Below, piece by piece: positions 1 through 18,061 of a stretch of DNA of 34,489 bases. Each line of letters begins with the position of its first letter. The stretch's first letter is position 1. The DNA is taken from positions 1 to 34,489 of IMG/VR virus record IMGVR_UViG_3300029268_002476. One strand, written 5' to 3'. The notes below the pieces were generated by a model. It made no database searches. It was not told the DNA's origin and worked only from the letters and a program-made list of their open reading frames with translations. The DNA is from a virus. The position numbers were made by a program, and so were the translations under genes.

Positions 1-672
1 TCAAAAGATTGGTATTTGCGGTCGGAAGGTCGATATTGCAGGAGTGTACGTAATAACAAGTTTCGGCCTTTTAGCGGTATCCGCAGAGTAATACGACGAC
101 CAGAAACCTGCGTAATGCTCCGGTGTCTCTGGCAACGATAGCCTGAGATATAGGATTTTCGACGAGTTTGTTTGCGCCCACTGCGTCATTGTAGTTATAT
201 CAATATTAGACCATGTGTTATTTGTCCCTGTTATGGTCGCACTGGCTGACCCTGTAGTCGTAATATCCGTTGATGTATTAGAGGCCCCTGCGGAAGCCCA
301 AGATGACCCAGTCTTGTAACTATTCCAGTTTACTTCAGACATTGCCATATCAGTCCGTACTACTCTATAGACTGATATCGTCTCCCCAGGTGTTAAACCT
401 CTCGAATATGTATACAATGACAATATTGCCGATGTTATAGTTGCTCCGGCTGGCAAAGCGGTAAAATCAAACCTTCCCGTTCCCCTCAGATTTATACTGG
501 TAGAATTGCCTGCATAGATAGATGTATCCGTACTTTGACTTGTGTCTGCATAATCGCCACGGATGCCGAACATGTTTGAAGCGGTTTGTATTGTCAGGGT
601 TTCGGCATTAACGATAGGACAGCACACCACGGCCATCATGATCAACATAACTTGGGCAATGATTCGCTTCAT
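1..672 (-). CDS. Secreted DNRLRE-type beta-sandwich protein, probable fiber/adhesin
   Basis: Complete 223-residue protein; its stop codon is the first three bases of the window. The first ~23 residues look like a Sec signal peptide: MKR, a hydrophobic stretch, then VNAET at a likely cleavage site. The rest resembles the DNRLRE (CBM96-like) extracellular beta-sandwich family, with RFDFTALPAGATITSAILSL near residues 67-86, a VYRVVR segment, and a terminal RPKLVITYTP strand. Such domains occur in cell-surface and carbohydrate-binding proteins. The start is supported by an AGGAGTG-like ribosome binding site just before ATG. It follows the fiber-like gene by 13 bases and is the last gene of the visible tail cluster, the usual place for receptor-binding or accessory proteins. 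It looks more AT-rich than its neighbours, which would fit recent acquisition. It could equally be a lysogenic-conversion surface protein. Confidence 0.7.
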   Translation of the reverse strand: MKRIIAQVMLIMMAVVCCPIVNAETLTIQTASNMFGIRGDYADTSQSTDTSIYAGNSTSINLRGTGRFDFTALPAGATITSAILSLYTYSRGLTPGETISVYRVVRTDMAMSEVNWNSYKTGSSWASAGASNTSTDITTTGSASATITGTNNTWSNIDITTMTQWAQTNSSKILYLRLSLPETPEHYAGFWSSYYSADTAKRPKLVITYTPAISTFRPQIPIF

Positions 673-13105: not shown

Positions 13106-14200
13106 TTAGGTCTGGATCGCCGTCCTGGAGACCTCGTACCAATGCGTCCCGTCGGTAATGAACCGGACCGCGTAGAACCGGCTCGCCGTGCTCGCGCAGG
13201 TGAGCGTCCCCACGGACGAAACAAGCGTCGCGTGGAATGTCACGACCTCGTCTCCCGCAACTCCGACGCCAGTGGCGATGACGATCGTGATTTCATCCCC
13301 GGCGGTGCCCGCCCCCGAGAAAGTGATTGTCGTGTCCTCGTTATCGTTGATGGCCAGGGTGTAGAGATTCGACAGGCCCACGGTCAGCGTGACCGCAGCC
13401 CCCGGCGTCAGGACGCTGGCGGCCGAGGCGAGCTGAACCTGGCCGGTCCTGTTGGGAATCGTCACGGTCCGGTCGGCCGTCGGATCCACCACGGTGACCG
13501 TCGTCTCGAAAGCGTCCGCCGTGGCCCCCTCGTAAAGCAGGCCGTTGGACGTTCCCGTCACAGCGTTGGCTGCATCCGCTCCGTTCGTGGCCAGGCTGGA
13601 GAGCATCACCGTACCTGAAGCATCCGGCACGGTTACAGTCCGATCCGCCGTCGGATCCGTAACGGCAATCGTCGACTCGAATTCGTCCGCCGTCGCCCCC
13701 TCAAAGACCAGAGGCGTCGCCCCGGAGAGTGTTCCCAAAACCGTCAATGCGGAGCTGTCAAAGTAATTTTGAAACGCTACCAGGTAGTCGGTTGTGCTGA
13801 TCGCATATCCGACCTGCTGGCTGTAGGCAGGCGCGGACTGGGTGATCGCCGCGGCCGTCTCGGAGAGATACCCCGGCTGCCCTTCGGAGAGAGTGGACCA
13901 TCCGGACAGGATTCCGAAGGCGATGATCTCCACCTTAGCCCCCGAGGCCGCCCCCTTGCCGACGATTCCGCACGCGGGCCGCAGGGCCGCATCGTTGGCG
14001 TCCGCCTTGTAGGCGTACCCGTCGGCATCCTTGATCATGACCACGTTGCCCGTGGCCAGGGTTTCACCCGCCGTGGCGGAGAACCTGGCCCACACCTGTT
14101 TGACGCTGTAGGCCGCGAAGGACTCCGTGACCAGGAACATCAGGCAGATCAGAAGAACGATGCTGCCGAGCGTGAATTTTTGACCTATATTTTTTCTCAT
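13106..14200 (-). CDS. Decoration-like virion protein with signal peptide and two repeats
   Basis: 364 residues from the ATG at 14200, which has AGGAGG 6 bases upstream (a TTG two codons earlier is less likely). Residues ~12-30 are hydrophobic and end in SFAAYS, a typical Sec cleavage context. Residues ~35-150 (VKQVWARFSATAGETLATG, VMIKDADGYAYKADANDAAL, EGQPGYLSETA) resemble phage capsid decoration or fiber-head domains. Two copies of a module follow at about 165-200 and 222-257, each with EGATAD.FE and DPTADRTVT. A C-terminal beta domain ends the protein. It lies directly after the capsid gene, the usual place for a decoration protein. The export signal does not fit cytoplasmic assembly. Confidence 0.65.
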   Translation of the reverse strand: MRKNIGQKFTLGSIVLLICLMFLVTESFAAYSVKQVWARFSATAGETLATGNVVMIKDADGYAYKADANDAALRPACGIVGKGAASGAKVEIIAFGILSGWSTLSEGQPGYLSETAAAITQSAPAYSQQVGYAISTTDYLVAFQNYFDSSALTVLGTLSGATPLVFEGATADEFESTIAVTDPTADRTVTVPDASGTVMLSSLATNGADAANAVTGTSNGLLYEGATADAFETTVTVVDPTADRTVTIPNRTGQVQLASAASVLTPGAAVTLTVGLSNLYTLAINDNEDTTITFSGAGTAGDEITIVIATGVGVAGDEVVTFHATLVSSVGTLTCASTASRFYAVRFITDGTHWYEVSRTAIQT

Positions 14201-14236
14201 TTTCAACCTCCTGATTATATGTCTGTTTTCACTGCC

Positions 14237-14268
14237 CCTGGCGGGGTCTATTTTTCAACCCCGCCAGG
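14237..14268. other. Hairpin between capsid and decoration-like genes
   Basis: An 11-bp perfect stem (CCTGGCGGGGT / ACCCCGCCAGG) encloses a 10-base loop (CTATTTTTCA). On the transcribed strand no T-run follows the stem, so termination by the intrinsic route is unlikely. The position fits an mRNA stability or processing element that raises expression of the upstream capsid message. This is inference. Confidence 0.6.
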
Positions 14269-14295
14269 CGTGGGGTTTCCCGTCGGTCGCGTCGC

Positions 14296-15873
14296 TTATC
14301 CGGCCACGACGGCCTTGTAGCCGGTACGGTAATCGATCACGGCGCCGGCGTACTCATGCCGGATCTTGTGCCTGATCTTGTCGGCCACGAACACCTGCTC
14401 CGACTGGGGCGAATCGGCCATGAACAGCTCCGGTTCCTCGCGGCCGTTGAGGTATCCCATCTCGACAACGTCGGCGACGCCGGGCGGCAGGATCATGTAC
14501 CAGTCGGTCGCGTCGGTCAGCAGTGACAAAACGACCGGGTTGACCTTGCCCCTCAGCGGGTTGGGAACCTTGGTCGTCAGATCGTTCCCGGTATAGTAGA
14601 ACTCCTCGGTTGCGATCTTCTGGATCGTCTCCATGAGATCGATCGGACCCACCAGGTTCGGCAGGATGCTCGGGTCATCGAGCAACCCGAGCCGTTCGCT
14701 GCTGTCTTTTTCGGTCATCGCGGCCAGCGCTTTGTAGGCGATCAGGGCCGTGGCATGGGTCAGCGCTGCGGCCCCGAGGTTCACATGGGCGCCGCCGCCG
14801 GTAAACCATGCCGTGCCGTCCGAGCAGTTGGCGTTGGCGACGGCGAAATTCCAGACGTATTTCGCGTGGGTTCGCCTGGCCGCCCGGCCGAGGCCGTTGA
14901 TCAGCCGCTGCACGATCGACAGATCATCGTTGATGATCGTCTTGCGGGTGATCGTCAGGATGTTCCCCTTCTGCCCGACCGTGTAGGTGGACTCCTCGTC
15001 CGTAACCCCGCCGATCTCCGCGTAATCCGCTGCTTCCGGATCTACCGTGGACAGATCGGAGAATCCGCCGACGAGCACCGCTTCCTGGGCGCGGAAATCC
15101 CGCACGGGCTTGCGGATCGAGATCAGGAGATCCTCGCGGAACTTTGCATCCCGGTATGAGGCGACGAGACGCCGCGCCATCGTGTTGCCCAGGACAAAAG
15201 AGAACGTCGCGCTCGTGATGTCCATCCGGCTGCGCAGTTCCGACGGCAGGTTTCGACGCTCGAAACGGCCGTTCACCTCCGCATCGCCGGTGAAAAAGGC
15301 GTACATCTCGCGGAGGCTGCGGAACGCCGGGACCTGGTCGTATCCTGCCAGGTCCTGGGTACTCCGGACATCCTGGAAGAATGGCTGATTATCCAGCCGC
15401 CGCATCCCCGCCAGCGTCGACAGTTCCGCGCCCGTCAGGCCAAACAGATGGTCGCAGGCCATGCAGGCCCGCTCATAGGTTCCCAGACCGACGCTGATCC
15501 CGGAGATCGACACCGGAGTCGGCTCCGCCGTCGTATTGATCTTCGCCAGGTAATCCTTCTCGTCGGCGATCGCCTTGGTCAGGTCCGCATCCATGAATGC
15601 ATGCCCGGCAAAGGTCGTCCGGATCCGCGCCTGGGCGATCTCCGGCAGCTCGCTTTTGGCCAGCTCGCGATCGAGCGCCATTCCGCAGGCCATCACCTGC
15701 AGCTCCTGTTTGGTGGCCAGTGTTGCCGGGTCCACCTGAAATCCACTCCGGGGTTCGTCTATAGCCATCTGTGCAATGGCTCCCACTTCCTGATCGGTGG
15801 CGGTGTCGAACACCTTGCCTTTCAGGAGGTCCGGCCGCAACTTCATGATCAAATCCCACAAACTTTTCTTCAT
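14296..15873 (-). CDS. Major capsid protein from internal start of the fusion
   Basis: 525 residues if translation begins at ATG 15873-15871 (Met316 of the fusion). AGGAGG stands at 15884-15879 with a 5-base spacer, one of the best ribosome binding sites in the window, and the new N-terminus MKKSLWDLI closely matches the N-termini of two neighbouring head proteins. A capsid needs far more shell subunits than protease, so independent initiation would set the right ratio. The first ~100 residues are helical and probably act as a scaffold-like delta region removed by the protease. The shell domain follows. The start is inferred from sequence only. Confidence 0.7.
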   Translation of the reverse strand: MKKSLWDLIMKLRPDLLKGKVFDTATDQEVGAIAQMAIDEPRSGFQVDPATLATKQELQVMACGMALDRELAKSELPEIAQARIRTTFAGHAFMDADLTKAIADEKDYLAKINTTAEPTPVSISGISVGLGTYERACMACDHLFGLTGAELSTLAGMRRLDNQPFFQDVRSTQDLAGYDQVPAFRSLREMYAFFTGDAEVNGRFERRNLPSELRSRMDITSATFSFVLGNTMARRLVASYRDAKFREDLLISIRKPVRDFRAQEAVLVGGFSDLSTVDPEAADYAEIGGVTDEESTYTVGQKGNILTITRKTIINDDLSIVQRLINGLGRAARRTHAKYVWNFAVANANCSDGTAWFTGGGAHVNLGAAALTHATALIAYKALAAMTEKDSSERLGLLDDPSILPNLVGPIDLMETIQKIATEEFYYTGNDLTTKVPNPLRGKVNPVVLSLLTDATDWYMILPPGVADVVEMGYLNGREEPELFMADSPQSEQVFVADKIRHKIRHEYAGAVIDYRTGYKAVVAG

Positions 15874-16818
15874 GGTTTCCTCCTCGTTTCGGGCCGGCAG
15901 ATCAGCCAATGCCCTGATAAATTTCCCGCCGGCGGCGGGCCTCGTGACCACATCCACGCCGATGACCCGGTTGAACTTGTAGATGTTCATGCATTCCTTG
16001 CCATCGACCGTTTCCTTTTTCGCCCGGACGGCCGCGTCCCACGACAGGCCGTAGACCGGTGCGCCCGCGTCCATCGCGGCGAGCATGTTTTTTCCCAACT
16101 GCTTGAAGCTGTCGAGGAAGTGGACCACCCCCTTAAGCCCCTCTCCGGCGACGTACCGGACGTTGTCCAGCCAGCCGGCCTTGTTCTTCACCAGCAGTTC
16201 CTTGACGTCGGCCAGCGGGCCGCGGACGTGGGTGGCGCCCTTGCCGGGCAGTTCGTAGAGATTGATGTCCGACTTTTCGAAGAGCCCCTCGTCAACGGCC
16301 GCGCGCAGAGCTTCTTCCCGGATATGCCAGCCGTTCCGGGTGTGCCCCGCCTCGCAGACCGTCACGTCCCAGGACGATCCCTCGACGTCCTTTGCGGCCC
16401 CGATGAGCATCACGAGGCCTACGCTGTCGGCATCATCGACGACGAGCACTTCCTGTACCGAGCGCACCTCGATGTATTGCTGCTCCACCTCGACGTGGTT
16501 CTCGCCGAGCTTCACTTCGCCGTCCAGGATCGACCACCCGGCCTTGTAGTATTTGCCGTCCCGCTCATAGATCAGGTAGGAGGGAAAGACCTCCCGGACC
16601 CAGGTCCGCGCGGGCTCGATGCCGTCGCTTTCCCCGGGCGGCGTGAAAAGCTTCCGGACCGCCTCCCAAAGCATGTCGCGGATCCGGTCCAGGGACAGAT
16701 CCACGGCCATTCCGGCAAGGGTTTCGACCTCGGCGTCCGTGAGCTTGTCGATATCCTTCCCGGCGAGCAGATCCGGCCGTTTGTCCCGGATCATCTTGAG
16801 CAATGCTGCTTTGTTCAT
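14296..16818 (-). CDS. Prohead protease / major capsid protein fusion
   Basis: 840 residues in a single open frame. Residues ~70-310 read as a prohead protease: WVREVFPSYLIYERDGKYYK, an ATHVRG motif with candidate catalytic His197, GLSWDA with candidate Ser259, and the closing VDVVTRPAAGG at 288-298. Residues 316-840 read as an HK97-fold major capsid protein, including LTITRKTIINDDLSIVQRLI and a C-terminal KIRHKIRHEYAGAVIDYRTGY. The protease normally clears scaffold from the prohead. Internal Met316 has its own strong ribosome binding site (separate entry), so separate capsid protein is probably also made. A ~40-residue module opens both halves. Protease/capsid fusions are known in phages. 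A 22-base gap separates it from the 124-residue gene. Confidence 0.85.
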   Translation of the reverse strand: MNKAALLKMIRDKRPDLLAGKDIDKLTDAEVETLAGMAVDLSLDRIRDMLWEAVRKLFTPPGESDGIEPARTWVREVFPSYLIYERDGKYYKAGWSILDGEVKLGENHVEVEQQYIEVRSVQEVLVVDDADSVGLVMLIGAAKDVEGSSWDVTVCEAGHTRNGWHIREEALRAAVDEGLFEKSDINLYELPGKGATHVRGPLADVKELLVKNKAGWLDNVRYVAGEGLKGVVHFLDSFKQLGKNMLAAMDAGAPVYGLSWDAAVRAKKETVDGKECMNIYKFNRVIGVDVVTRPAAGGKFIRALADLPARNEEETMKKSLWDLIMKLRPDLLKGKVFDTATDQEVGAIAQMAIDEPRSGFQVDPATLATKQELQVMACGMALDRELAKSELPEIAQARIRTTFAGHAFMDADLTKAIADEKDYLAKINTTAEPTPVSISGISVGLGTYERACMACDHLFGLTGAELSTLAGMRRLDNQPFFQDVRSTQDLAGYDQVPAFRSLREMYAFFTGDAEVNGRFERRNLPSELRSRMDITSATFSFVLGNTMARRLVASYRDAKFREDLLISIRKPVRDFRAQEAVLVGGFSDLSTVDPEAADYAEIGGVTDEESTYTVGQKGNILTITRKTIINDDLSIVQRLINGLGRAARRTHAKYVWNFAVANANCSDGTAWFTGGGAHVNLGAAALTHATALIAYKALAAMTEKDSSERLGLLDDPSILPNLVGPIDLMETIQKIATEEFYYTGNDLTTKVPNPLRGKVNPVVLSLLTDATDWYMILPPGVADVVEMGYLNGREEPELFMADSPQSEQVFVADKIRHKIRHEYAGAVIDYRTGYKAVVAG
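15879..15884 (-). promoter_or_regulatory. Internal Shine-Dalgarno inside the protease-capsid frame
   Basis: AGGAGG on the minus strand, 5 bases before an in-frame ATG at 15873. In the protein it encodes part of an NEEET run between the protease and capsid halves. It looks like the original start region of a once separate capsid gene, kept after loss of the intervening stop. Confidence 0.75.
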
Positions 16819-16840
16819 GACTCCTCCTTACGCCGCCCCA

Positions 16841-17215
16841 TTATTTTTTGGCCGCGCCCGTGATGGGCTTGCGCTTTGCGGCCGGATTGATCCCGGTAAC
16901 GGAGATCTGGTCCAGGGCCTCGACCTTGTCGCCAGCCTTGAAGCGGACCTTCTTGCCGCCGTTGGTGACGATCGTCGCCACTCCGTCCTTGACGGCGCTT
17001 CCGACCACGTATTTGGAAACGATCCCGTAGGCCTCGCAAGCCGCGGCGATCAAATCCAGGGCGGTGCCAATGCCGTCAGATTTGTTCGAAATGTCGATCC
17101 CGGCGCCTTTGGCCAGCTCTTCGAGTGCCGCCTTCGTGATGTCCTCGTAGACCTTCCCGGCCAACAATTCAGGCTGTTTCCCCTGAATCAGATCCCACAA
17201 TTGCTTTTTGTTCAT
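16841..17215 (-). CDS. Small head-region protein with capsid N-terminal module
   Basis: 124 residues. The first ~40 (LWDLIQGKQPELLAGK, then a DITKAALEELAKGA helix) match the N-terminal modules of the downstream fusion protein at residues 1-40 and 316-355. The C-terminal half is predicted beta-rich (KYVVGSAVKDGVATIVTNGG, KKVRFKAGDKVEALD). It lies between the Mu F-like gene and the protease/capsid gene, where scaffolding or prohead accessory proteins occur. The shared module suggests it is packed into or templates the prohead. No family is recognised; the role is inference. Confidence 0.6.
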   Translation of the reverse strand: MNKKQLWDLIQGKQPELLAGKVYEDITKAALEELAKGAGIDISNKSDGIGTALDLIAAACEAYGIVSKYVVGSAVKDGVATIVTNGGKKVRFKAGDKVEALDQISVTGINPAAKRKPITGAAKK

Positions 17216-17248
17216 GTTCGTTGCTCCTTTCGTCTCAATGGTTTATGG

Positions 17249-18061
17249 TCACGCCCAGCTCGACATATACGGCACGGTGTAACAACTGCAATTGATCGTG
17301 TTCTTCGCGGATCCCGCCGGATCCCGCGGGTACATCAGTTGTTCGCCGCCGACGTTGAACGGCTCGCTCACGTTCCGGATCTGGCCGACGGCCGCCAGGT
17401 GCGAAGGGCGCGGCATCCGGACATTCTGCCCGTGGAACCACTGCTTCTGCAGACCCGGGATCAGCTTTGCCGCCTCCGTCAGGCGCGCCTGGGATGCCAT
17501 TTCGAGGACGCGGCCGGCCTCCGTCCGGGTAATCGTCTCGGCGCGCTTGGCGATGCTCGTGAAGATCGATTTATCCTTCAGGTTTTTTCCCACGGCTTCC
17601 ATCACCTCGAACGGTGTTTTCTGTCCCATGAGCCCCATCGTGATTTCGTTGTTGATCCTGAGCGCGGCGTCTTTCGCCAGCCCCTTGATCAGGTCGGCGC
17701 CATAGCCCTGCATGATGCTGAGGACCGTCGTGTCGATCGCCGGGAAGGACGCATATATGCCGACCTCGCGGATGGGTGCGTCCACGATGTTGATGCCGTC
17801 TTCGAAAAAAGAGCGCTGCGCCTCCCGGAGTTCCACGCCGTATTTGTCTCCGAACTGCTGTAGTGCCCGTTCGATCGCGTTTTTCAGCTCCGGCAGCCGA
17901 TAGGCCTGCCACTCCGTCGAGGCGACCGTCGCGGCGACCTCCTTTCGGGCGGCGGCGAGGAGCTCGATTACCTTCGCCACCGCGGCATCTTCCAGGCTTT
18001 GCGCCTGAGCGATCAGCTCCTTGACCTTCCGGTCGAAGGCGATTTCTTTTTTACTGCGCAT
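17249..18061 (-). CDS. Mu F-like minor head protein
   Basis: 270 residues. The C-terminal part (about 215-265) has the signature of the Mu gpF / SPP1 gp7 family: RMPRPSHLAA, a GGEQLMYPRDPAGSA segment and TINCSC. An ITRTEAGRVLEMASQARL helix comes before it. The N-terminal half is a long Lys/Ala/Glu-rich helix. Members sit inside the head near the portal and may travel with the DNA. The start overlaps the end of the portal gene by 11 bases and has GGAGG 6-7 bases upstream. Family assignment is strong; the exact role in the virion is unproven. Confidence 0.88.
   Translation of the reverse strand: MRSKKEIAFDRKVKELIAQAQSLEDAAVAKVIELLAAARKEVAATVASTEWQAYRLPELKNAIERALQQFGDKYGVELREAQRSFFEDGINIVDAPIREVGIYASFPAIDTTVLSIMQGYGADLIKGLAKDAALRINNEITMGLMGQKTPFEVMEAVGKNLKDKSIFTSIAKRAETITRTEAGRVLEMASQARLTEAAKLIPGLQKQWFHGQNVRMPRPSHLAAVGQIRNVSEPFNVGGEQLMYPRDPAGSAKNTINCSCYTVPYMSSWA

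Follow-up and report, generated by a model that had tools for sequence, protein, structure and literature searches.

A conserved internal ribosome-binding site in a protease-scaffold-capsid fusion gene of a Mu-like phage points to two products from one reading frame

A phage shell needs hundreds of capsid subunits and far fewer proteases, and in phages with separate genes for the two proteins the protease dose is far below one per shell subunit. In lambda, the C/Nu3 pair has a nested in-frame start, the capsid protein E has a separate gene, and the protease is ClpP-like. Nested starts in prohead protease genes and single-gene protease-capsid fusions are both known. Among relatives of the Mu I/Z genes, PaMx73 gene 27 has an in-frame internal Shine-Dalgarno (SD) sequence and start just past the protease domain, from which the scaffold alone is made (PMC4378225), and KS10 gp28/gp29 have the same nested protease/scaffold start (PMC2628397). 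PMC8508860 describes lambda C/Nu3 as protease and scaffold from a single gene and HK97 gp5 as having an N-terminal scaffold (delta) domain that is removed by the protease. In the accessible parts of their published descriptions, phages MD8/F10, the Rhodobacter RcC phages, and the Arthrobacter AM/AU/AN phages encode protease, scaffold, and capsid in a single gene, as does the locus analyzed here, and those parts mention no internal start.

The window used in this study is the whole 34,489-nucleotide stretch of IMG/VR virus record IMGVR_UViG_3300029268_002476 (positions 1 to 34,489). Judged by its gene content, it is a Mu-like transposable tailed phage; it carries a Mu-like transposase and a transposition AAA (MuB-like) protein, with terminase, portal, and MuF-like genes upstream of the fusion gene and a tape measure gene downstream. 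The fusion gene is an open reading frame of 840 codons without an internal stop, running from ATG 16818 to a stop codon that ends at 14296. A first-pass annotation had recognized protease and capsid halves in this frame with the right coordinates and had given no strand, which is minus. The features of the locus are collected in Table 1. HK97 gp4/gp5 resemble it in the built-in N-terminal scaffold and the HK97 fold but differ in that protease and capsid are separate genes. Lambda differs in its separate capsid gene and its ClpP-like protease, and Mu-like phages encode the capsid (T) in a gene of its own, whereas here it is fused and the predicted inner product comprises scaffold and capsid.

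Table 1. Features of the fusion locus (window coordinates)
Feature	Coordinates	Strand	Size or support
Protease-scaffold-capsid fusion gene, outer product	14296..16818	-	840 aa
Predicted inner product, scaffold-like domain and capsid	14296..15873	-	525 aa
Outer SD AAGGAGGAG ahead of ATG 16818	16821..16829	-	
Internal SD AGGAGG	15879..15884	-	
Internal ATG, codon 316 (Met316)	15871..15873	-	
40-aa helical N-terminal module, residues 1-40	16699..16818	-	HMM E 7e-15
Second module copy, residues 316-355, RPDLL motif	15754..15873	-	
Protease domain, about residues 132-291, T4 gp21-like fold	15946..16425	-	
Disordered linker, residues 295-315; codons hold the internal ribosome site	15874..15936	-	pLDDT < 50
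Helical scaffold (delta-like) region, residues 316-428	15535..15873	-	structure model
HK97-fold capsid domain, about residues 440-840	14299..15501	-	
Upstream 124-aa gene, first 40 aa a third module copy	16841..17215	-	E 5e-11

The full-length fusion protein was modeled with a pLDDT of 81. Its capsid half matches the Pfam family Phage_capsid_4 (residues 536–836, E 5.5e-33), and its best structural matches in the PDB are to the HK97 capsid (E 2e-8), which identifies it as an HK97-fold major capsid protein; a sequence search of the PDB returned only weak matches to a Mu gpT domain (E 0.34). The protease half had no match in Pfam at E 1 and did not fit the family profiles of Peptidase_S78 or ClpP (S14). 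When modeled separately (pLDDT 83), it matched only the T4 gp21 protease (5jbl) in the PDB at E ≤ 1e-3, with a TM score of 0.51–0.59 on the target, a gp21-like fold. Residues His197, Ser259, and Asp289 of this half are invariant in 64 sequences and are candidates for the catalytic His, Ser, and acidic residues of a gp21-type protease. In the full-length model, a disordered linker at residues 295–313 precedes a helical region at residues 316–427, and residues 429–438 beyond it are again disordered and form a candidate cleavage zone. Two distant relatives that encode the capsid only (L011 and L012) start near the helical scaffold region. Because of this domain order, the internal ribosome site lies in codons of the disordered linker and the inner product would consist of the scaffold-like part and the capsid. 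The earlier description of this product as free capsid was therefore correct in that the capsid lies within it but not in that the capsid is bare, since the scaffold-like N-terminal part precedes it.

The 58 in-frame ATG, GTG, and TTG codons of the fusion frame were scored as candidate starts by their duplex energy to the anti-SD sequence. The strongest pairings are those ahead of ATG1 (-12.1 kcal/mol) and ATG316 (-11.8 kcal/mol), and the next is -7.4. The AGGAGG that had been noted 5 bases before an in-frame ATG at 15873 is indeed present at 15884-15879, separated by the spacer AAACC from codon 316 (15873-15871). The outer and inner sites of the window are thus about equal in predicted strength, and the SD sequences alone would not lead one to expect a large excess of the inner product. 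A promoter scan of positions 13900–17400 found no sigma-70-like site and so gave no sign of a separate transcript that begins within the gene.

About 80 relatives with 28–65% identity were recovered by scanning viral and genome contigs, and the window and its relatives, made non-redundant at 90%, formed a core set of 65 sequences. The named genomes among the relatives' matches are mostly Deltaproteobacteria-type MAGs; no cultured phage was matched in a search at the DNA level. Protease and capsid share one frame in all relatives whose gene is complete on the contig, and none of the 65 is split between the halves; L076 has a frame break within its capsid half, and in L073 the protease has lost its N-terminal part. 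The unbroken fusion in every complete relative suggests that the long product is also needed. Aligned on Met316, a start codon is present in all 77 full-length sequences. The first-pass annotation had put forward that one gene gives two products and that homologues lacking the site would count against this; the start codon has been lost in none of the 65 sequences, and 63 of them have a site with a duplex energy of -7 kcal/mol or below (55 of -10 or below), which supports that proposal. ATG stands at the site or one codon later in 64 of the 65, and in the remaining sequence, L066, GTG replaces it, so that Val takes the place of Met and a start codon is preserved. GGAGG is present in 55 of the 65, in 34 with a 5-nt spacing. 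A few relatives have weaker internal sites, among them L057 (-5.6) and L083 (-5.8), and Mae-JY22, a distant Microcystis phage, has no more than GGAG (-6.4). An in-frame start with an SD after the protease domain is accordingly a conserved feature of the family, and when all alignment columns were scanned, a start with a strong SD occurred in 55 of 65 sequences at this site and in 9 at the next-best internal column.

The excess over chance was estimated from a synonymous null that drew on the amino acids and codon usage of each individual sequence. GGAGG was observed within 3–12 nt of the internal start in 53 sequences as compared with 17.6 expected, a 3-fold excess, whereas elsewhere in the 65 fusion genes, excluding the internal site and the gene starts, it is depleted (259 observed, 372 expected). 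The corresponding z of 11 takes no account of the relatedness of the sequences, and greater weight belongs to the changes of frame and to the difference between this site and the rest of the gene. All three reading frames of GGAGG are used (xxG-GAG-G in 47, GGA-GG in 4, and GG-AGG in 2), and the SD is encoded through 24 different tripeptides, such as KEE, QEV, GGR, and GRR. The 40-nt segment centered on the internal start has a mean folding energy of -3.0 as compared with about -7 to -13 in the flanks; this region is less structured than its synonymous versions (z +0.65, t 4.5), and ten control windows all deviate in the opposite direction. The GGAGG excess, the variety of frames, and the low structure are independent marks of what appears to be a used translation start, and, as far as the sequences can tell, the conservation of the site at the nucleotide level is the result of selection for translation initiation. 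A GC-rich hairpin 30–70 nt upstream of the internal start was also considered as a conserved RNA element and was rejected, because on synonymous resampling the peptide RPAAGGKF accounts for it (z -0.12).

The residues that follow the two starts are related. Residues 1–40 and 316–355 align with a score of 84, as compared with 24 ± 5 and a maximum of 48 in 2000 shuffles. An HMM of the module after Met316 finds a copy at the fusion gene's own N terminus in 10 of 65 genes and another at the N terminus of the adjoining upstream 124-aa gene of the window, so that the starts at 17215, 16818, and 15873 each precede a copy of the same helical module. That the module found at true N termini also follows the internal ATG further supports initiation at Met316. 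The relatives of the 124-aa gene (L265, L267, L268, and L269) have the C-terminal domain only, without the module, which the window gene has gained. In L046, two tandem copies follow the internal start (fusion residues 251–335), and in L007, L008, L043, and L060 a ChaB domain (PF06150) replaces the module at the N terminus of the protease half. The outer N terminus of the fusion seems to be freely swapped. That the module serves as a tag for assembly or entry is a guess.

From one gene, the phage very probably makes both the protease fusion and, from the internal start, the shell protein with its scaffold-like part but no protease. The two ribosome sites and the domain order can be read directly from the sequence, as can the conservation under selection for initiation; from these we infer the production of both proteins, their ratio, co-assembly, and cleavage. 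Ribosomes starting at 16818 would make the 840-aa protease-scaffold-capsid protein, and ribosomes starting at 15873 on the same mRNA would make the 525-aa scaffold-capsid protein, which would supply the bulk of the shell subunits and bring its own scaffold. The long form would co-assemble through its identical scaffold-capsid part and carry the protease into the procapsid, where the protease would free itself and remove the scaffold parts, probably by cleavage near residues 429–440. We consider this explanation as a whole, with two starts on one mRNA, co-assembly, and protease release, to be likely. Within it, the division into a minor fusion and a major free capsid is plausible.

Three other explanations have to be weighed against two starts with a bulk inner product. 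It is quite unlikely that only the full-length chain is made, that the protease cleaves itself from each copy, and that the AGGAGG-ATG is a fossil of two fused ancestral genes. A single chain cleaved by the protease is the usual annotation of protease-capsid fusions, and a two-gene ancestor is plausible because separate capsid genes with their own strong SD occur in the distant L011 and L012 and in the Methanoculleus virus L4768. A fossil would decay, however, whereas this site is kept at the nucleotide level across 28–65% identity and in all three frames, its start codon is kept even where it encodes Val, and the mRNA structure around it is reduced.

Both starts could also be used with the opposite weighting, the long chain serving as main shell subunit and the short product as a minor form with a scaffold or regulatory role. 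This reading agrees with the equal SD strengths in the window. Among 63 members of the family, however, the inner SD exceeds the outer in strength in 42, matches it in 12, and falls short of it in 9, and shell subunits that each bore a complete protease would far exceed the protease dose of phages with separate genes, so that we regard this arrangement as very unlikely. A site whose codons specify a disordered linker joining two folded domains would also suit a pause, at which pairing of the internal site with the anti-SD delays elongating ribosomes, without initiation, so that the protease folds first. Such a pause needs neither a start codon 5–8 nt away, nor an unstructured region, nor a following N-terminal module, yet all three are conserved, which makes pausing extremely unlikely.

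With initiation at both sites, the conserved internal start would answer the stoichiometry puzzle of fused genes without a second gene and would also give each protease entry into the shell. The main shell protein is probably missing from database entries in which the fusion stands as a single protein. The likeness to lambda C/Nu3 proposed in the first-pass annotation stands and can be refined, as Mu I/Z, a protease with a nested scaffold, is equally near. No scaffold-only inner product with a separate capsid gene is encoded here, the capsid lying in the same frame, and what appears new is a Mu I/Z scheme in which the capsid has become part of the inner product. No report of a conserved internal start in protease-capsid fusions was found in a literature search that covered few subscription journals.

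Other fusions share the capsid but not the protease. The F10-, Psul1-, and RcMamaDuck-type capsids are homologous to that of the window (hhalign probability 99.7–99.8), whereas the window protease has no profile match to the Rc S78, F10, or Psul1 proteases and is unrelated to them by sequence. The RcMamaDuck protease is a Peptidase_S78, and PMC8508860 calls that of MD8, which belongs to the F10 group, ClpP-like. Matches to the NCBIfam models of protease/major capsid fusions, NF045541 (162.5 of 525 bits) and NF045540 (129.6 of 475 bits), were below the curated full-length cut-offs and covered the capsid part only. A start codon, Met214 in Rhodobacter RcMamaDuck itself, follows the protease in all 36 non-redundant RcMamaDuck-type genes, where the mean duplex energy is -7.65 as compared with -5.23 for synonymous versions and the SD is carried by differing peptides (TRTT, KEAE, RKGDQ, and TEAQ). 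The same position holds a start codon in 14 of 14 F10-type and 6 of 7 Psul1-type genes, in which the SD and the conservation of the peptide cannot be told apart (mean P 0.46 and 0.49, respectively), so that these two types are no more than consistent with an internal start. The cultured relatives Stenotrophomonas S1 (Met207) and Paenibacillus Pd_22F (Met204) also have an in-frame start after the protease, and Escherichia coli mEp043 and mEp460 have one at the F10 position with a weaker GAGGAA. A capsid lineage with a portable internal start, upstream of which unrelated proteases (gp21-like, S78, and ClpP) were fused and in which ribosome choice sets the ratio, with the 40-aa module a procapsid-entry or assembly tag copied to the protease end and to the 124-aa protein, is a tentative possibility that we hold to be somewhat doubtful.

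Several genes near or related to the fusion were also observed. Directly after the capsid gene and ahead of the connector genes, the gene at 13106-14206 (minus strand) has weak matches to tail-fibre/baseplate PHROGs. At the contig end, the gene at 1-672 (minus strand) encodes a protein with matches to carbohydrate-binding CBM96 and disaggregatase repeats, perhaps a tail adhesin. The protease-less distant capsid relatives L011 (2931-6047) and L012 (2567-6005) immediately follow a MuB-like AAA gene and GemA, which is an unusual position for the capsid gene of a Mu-like phage.
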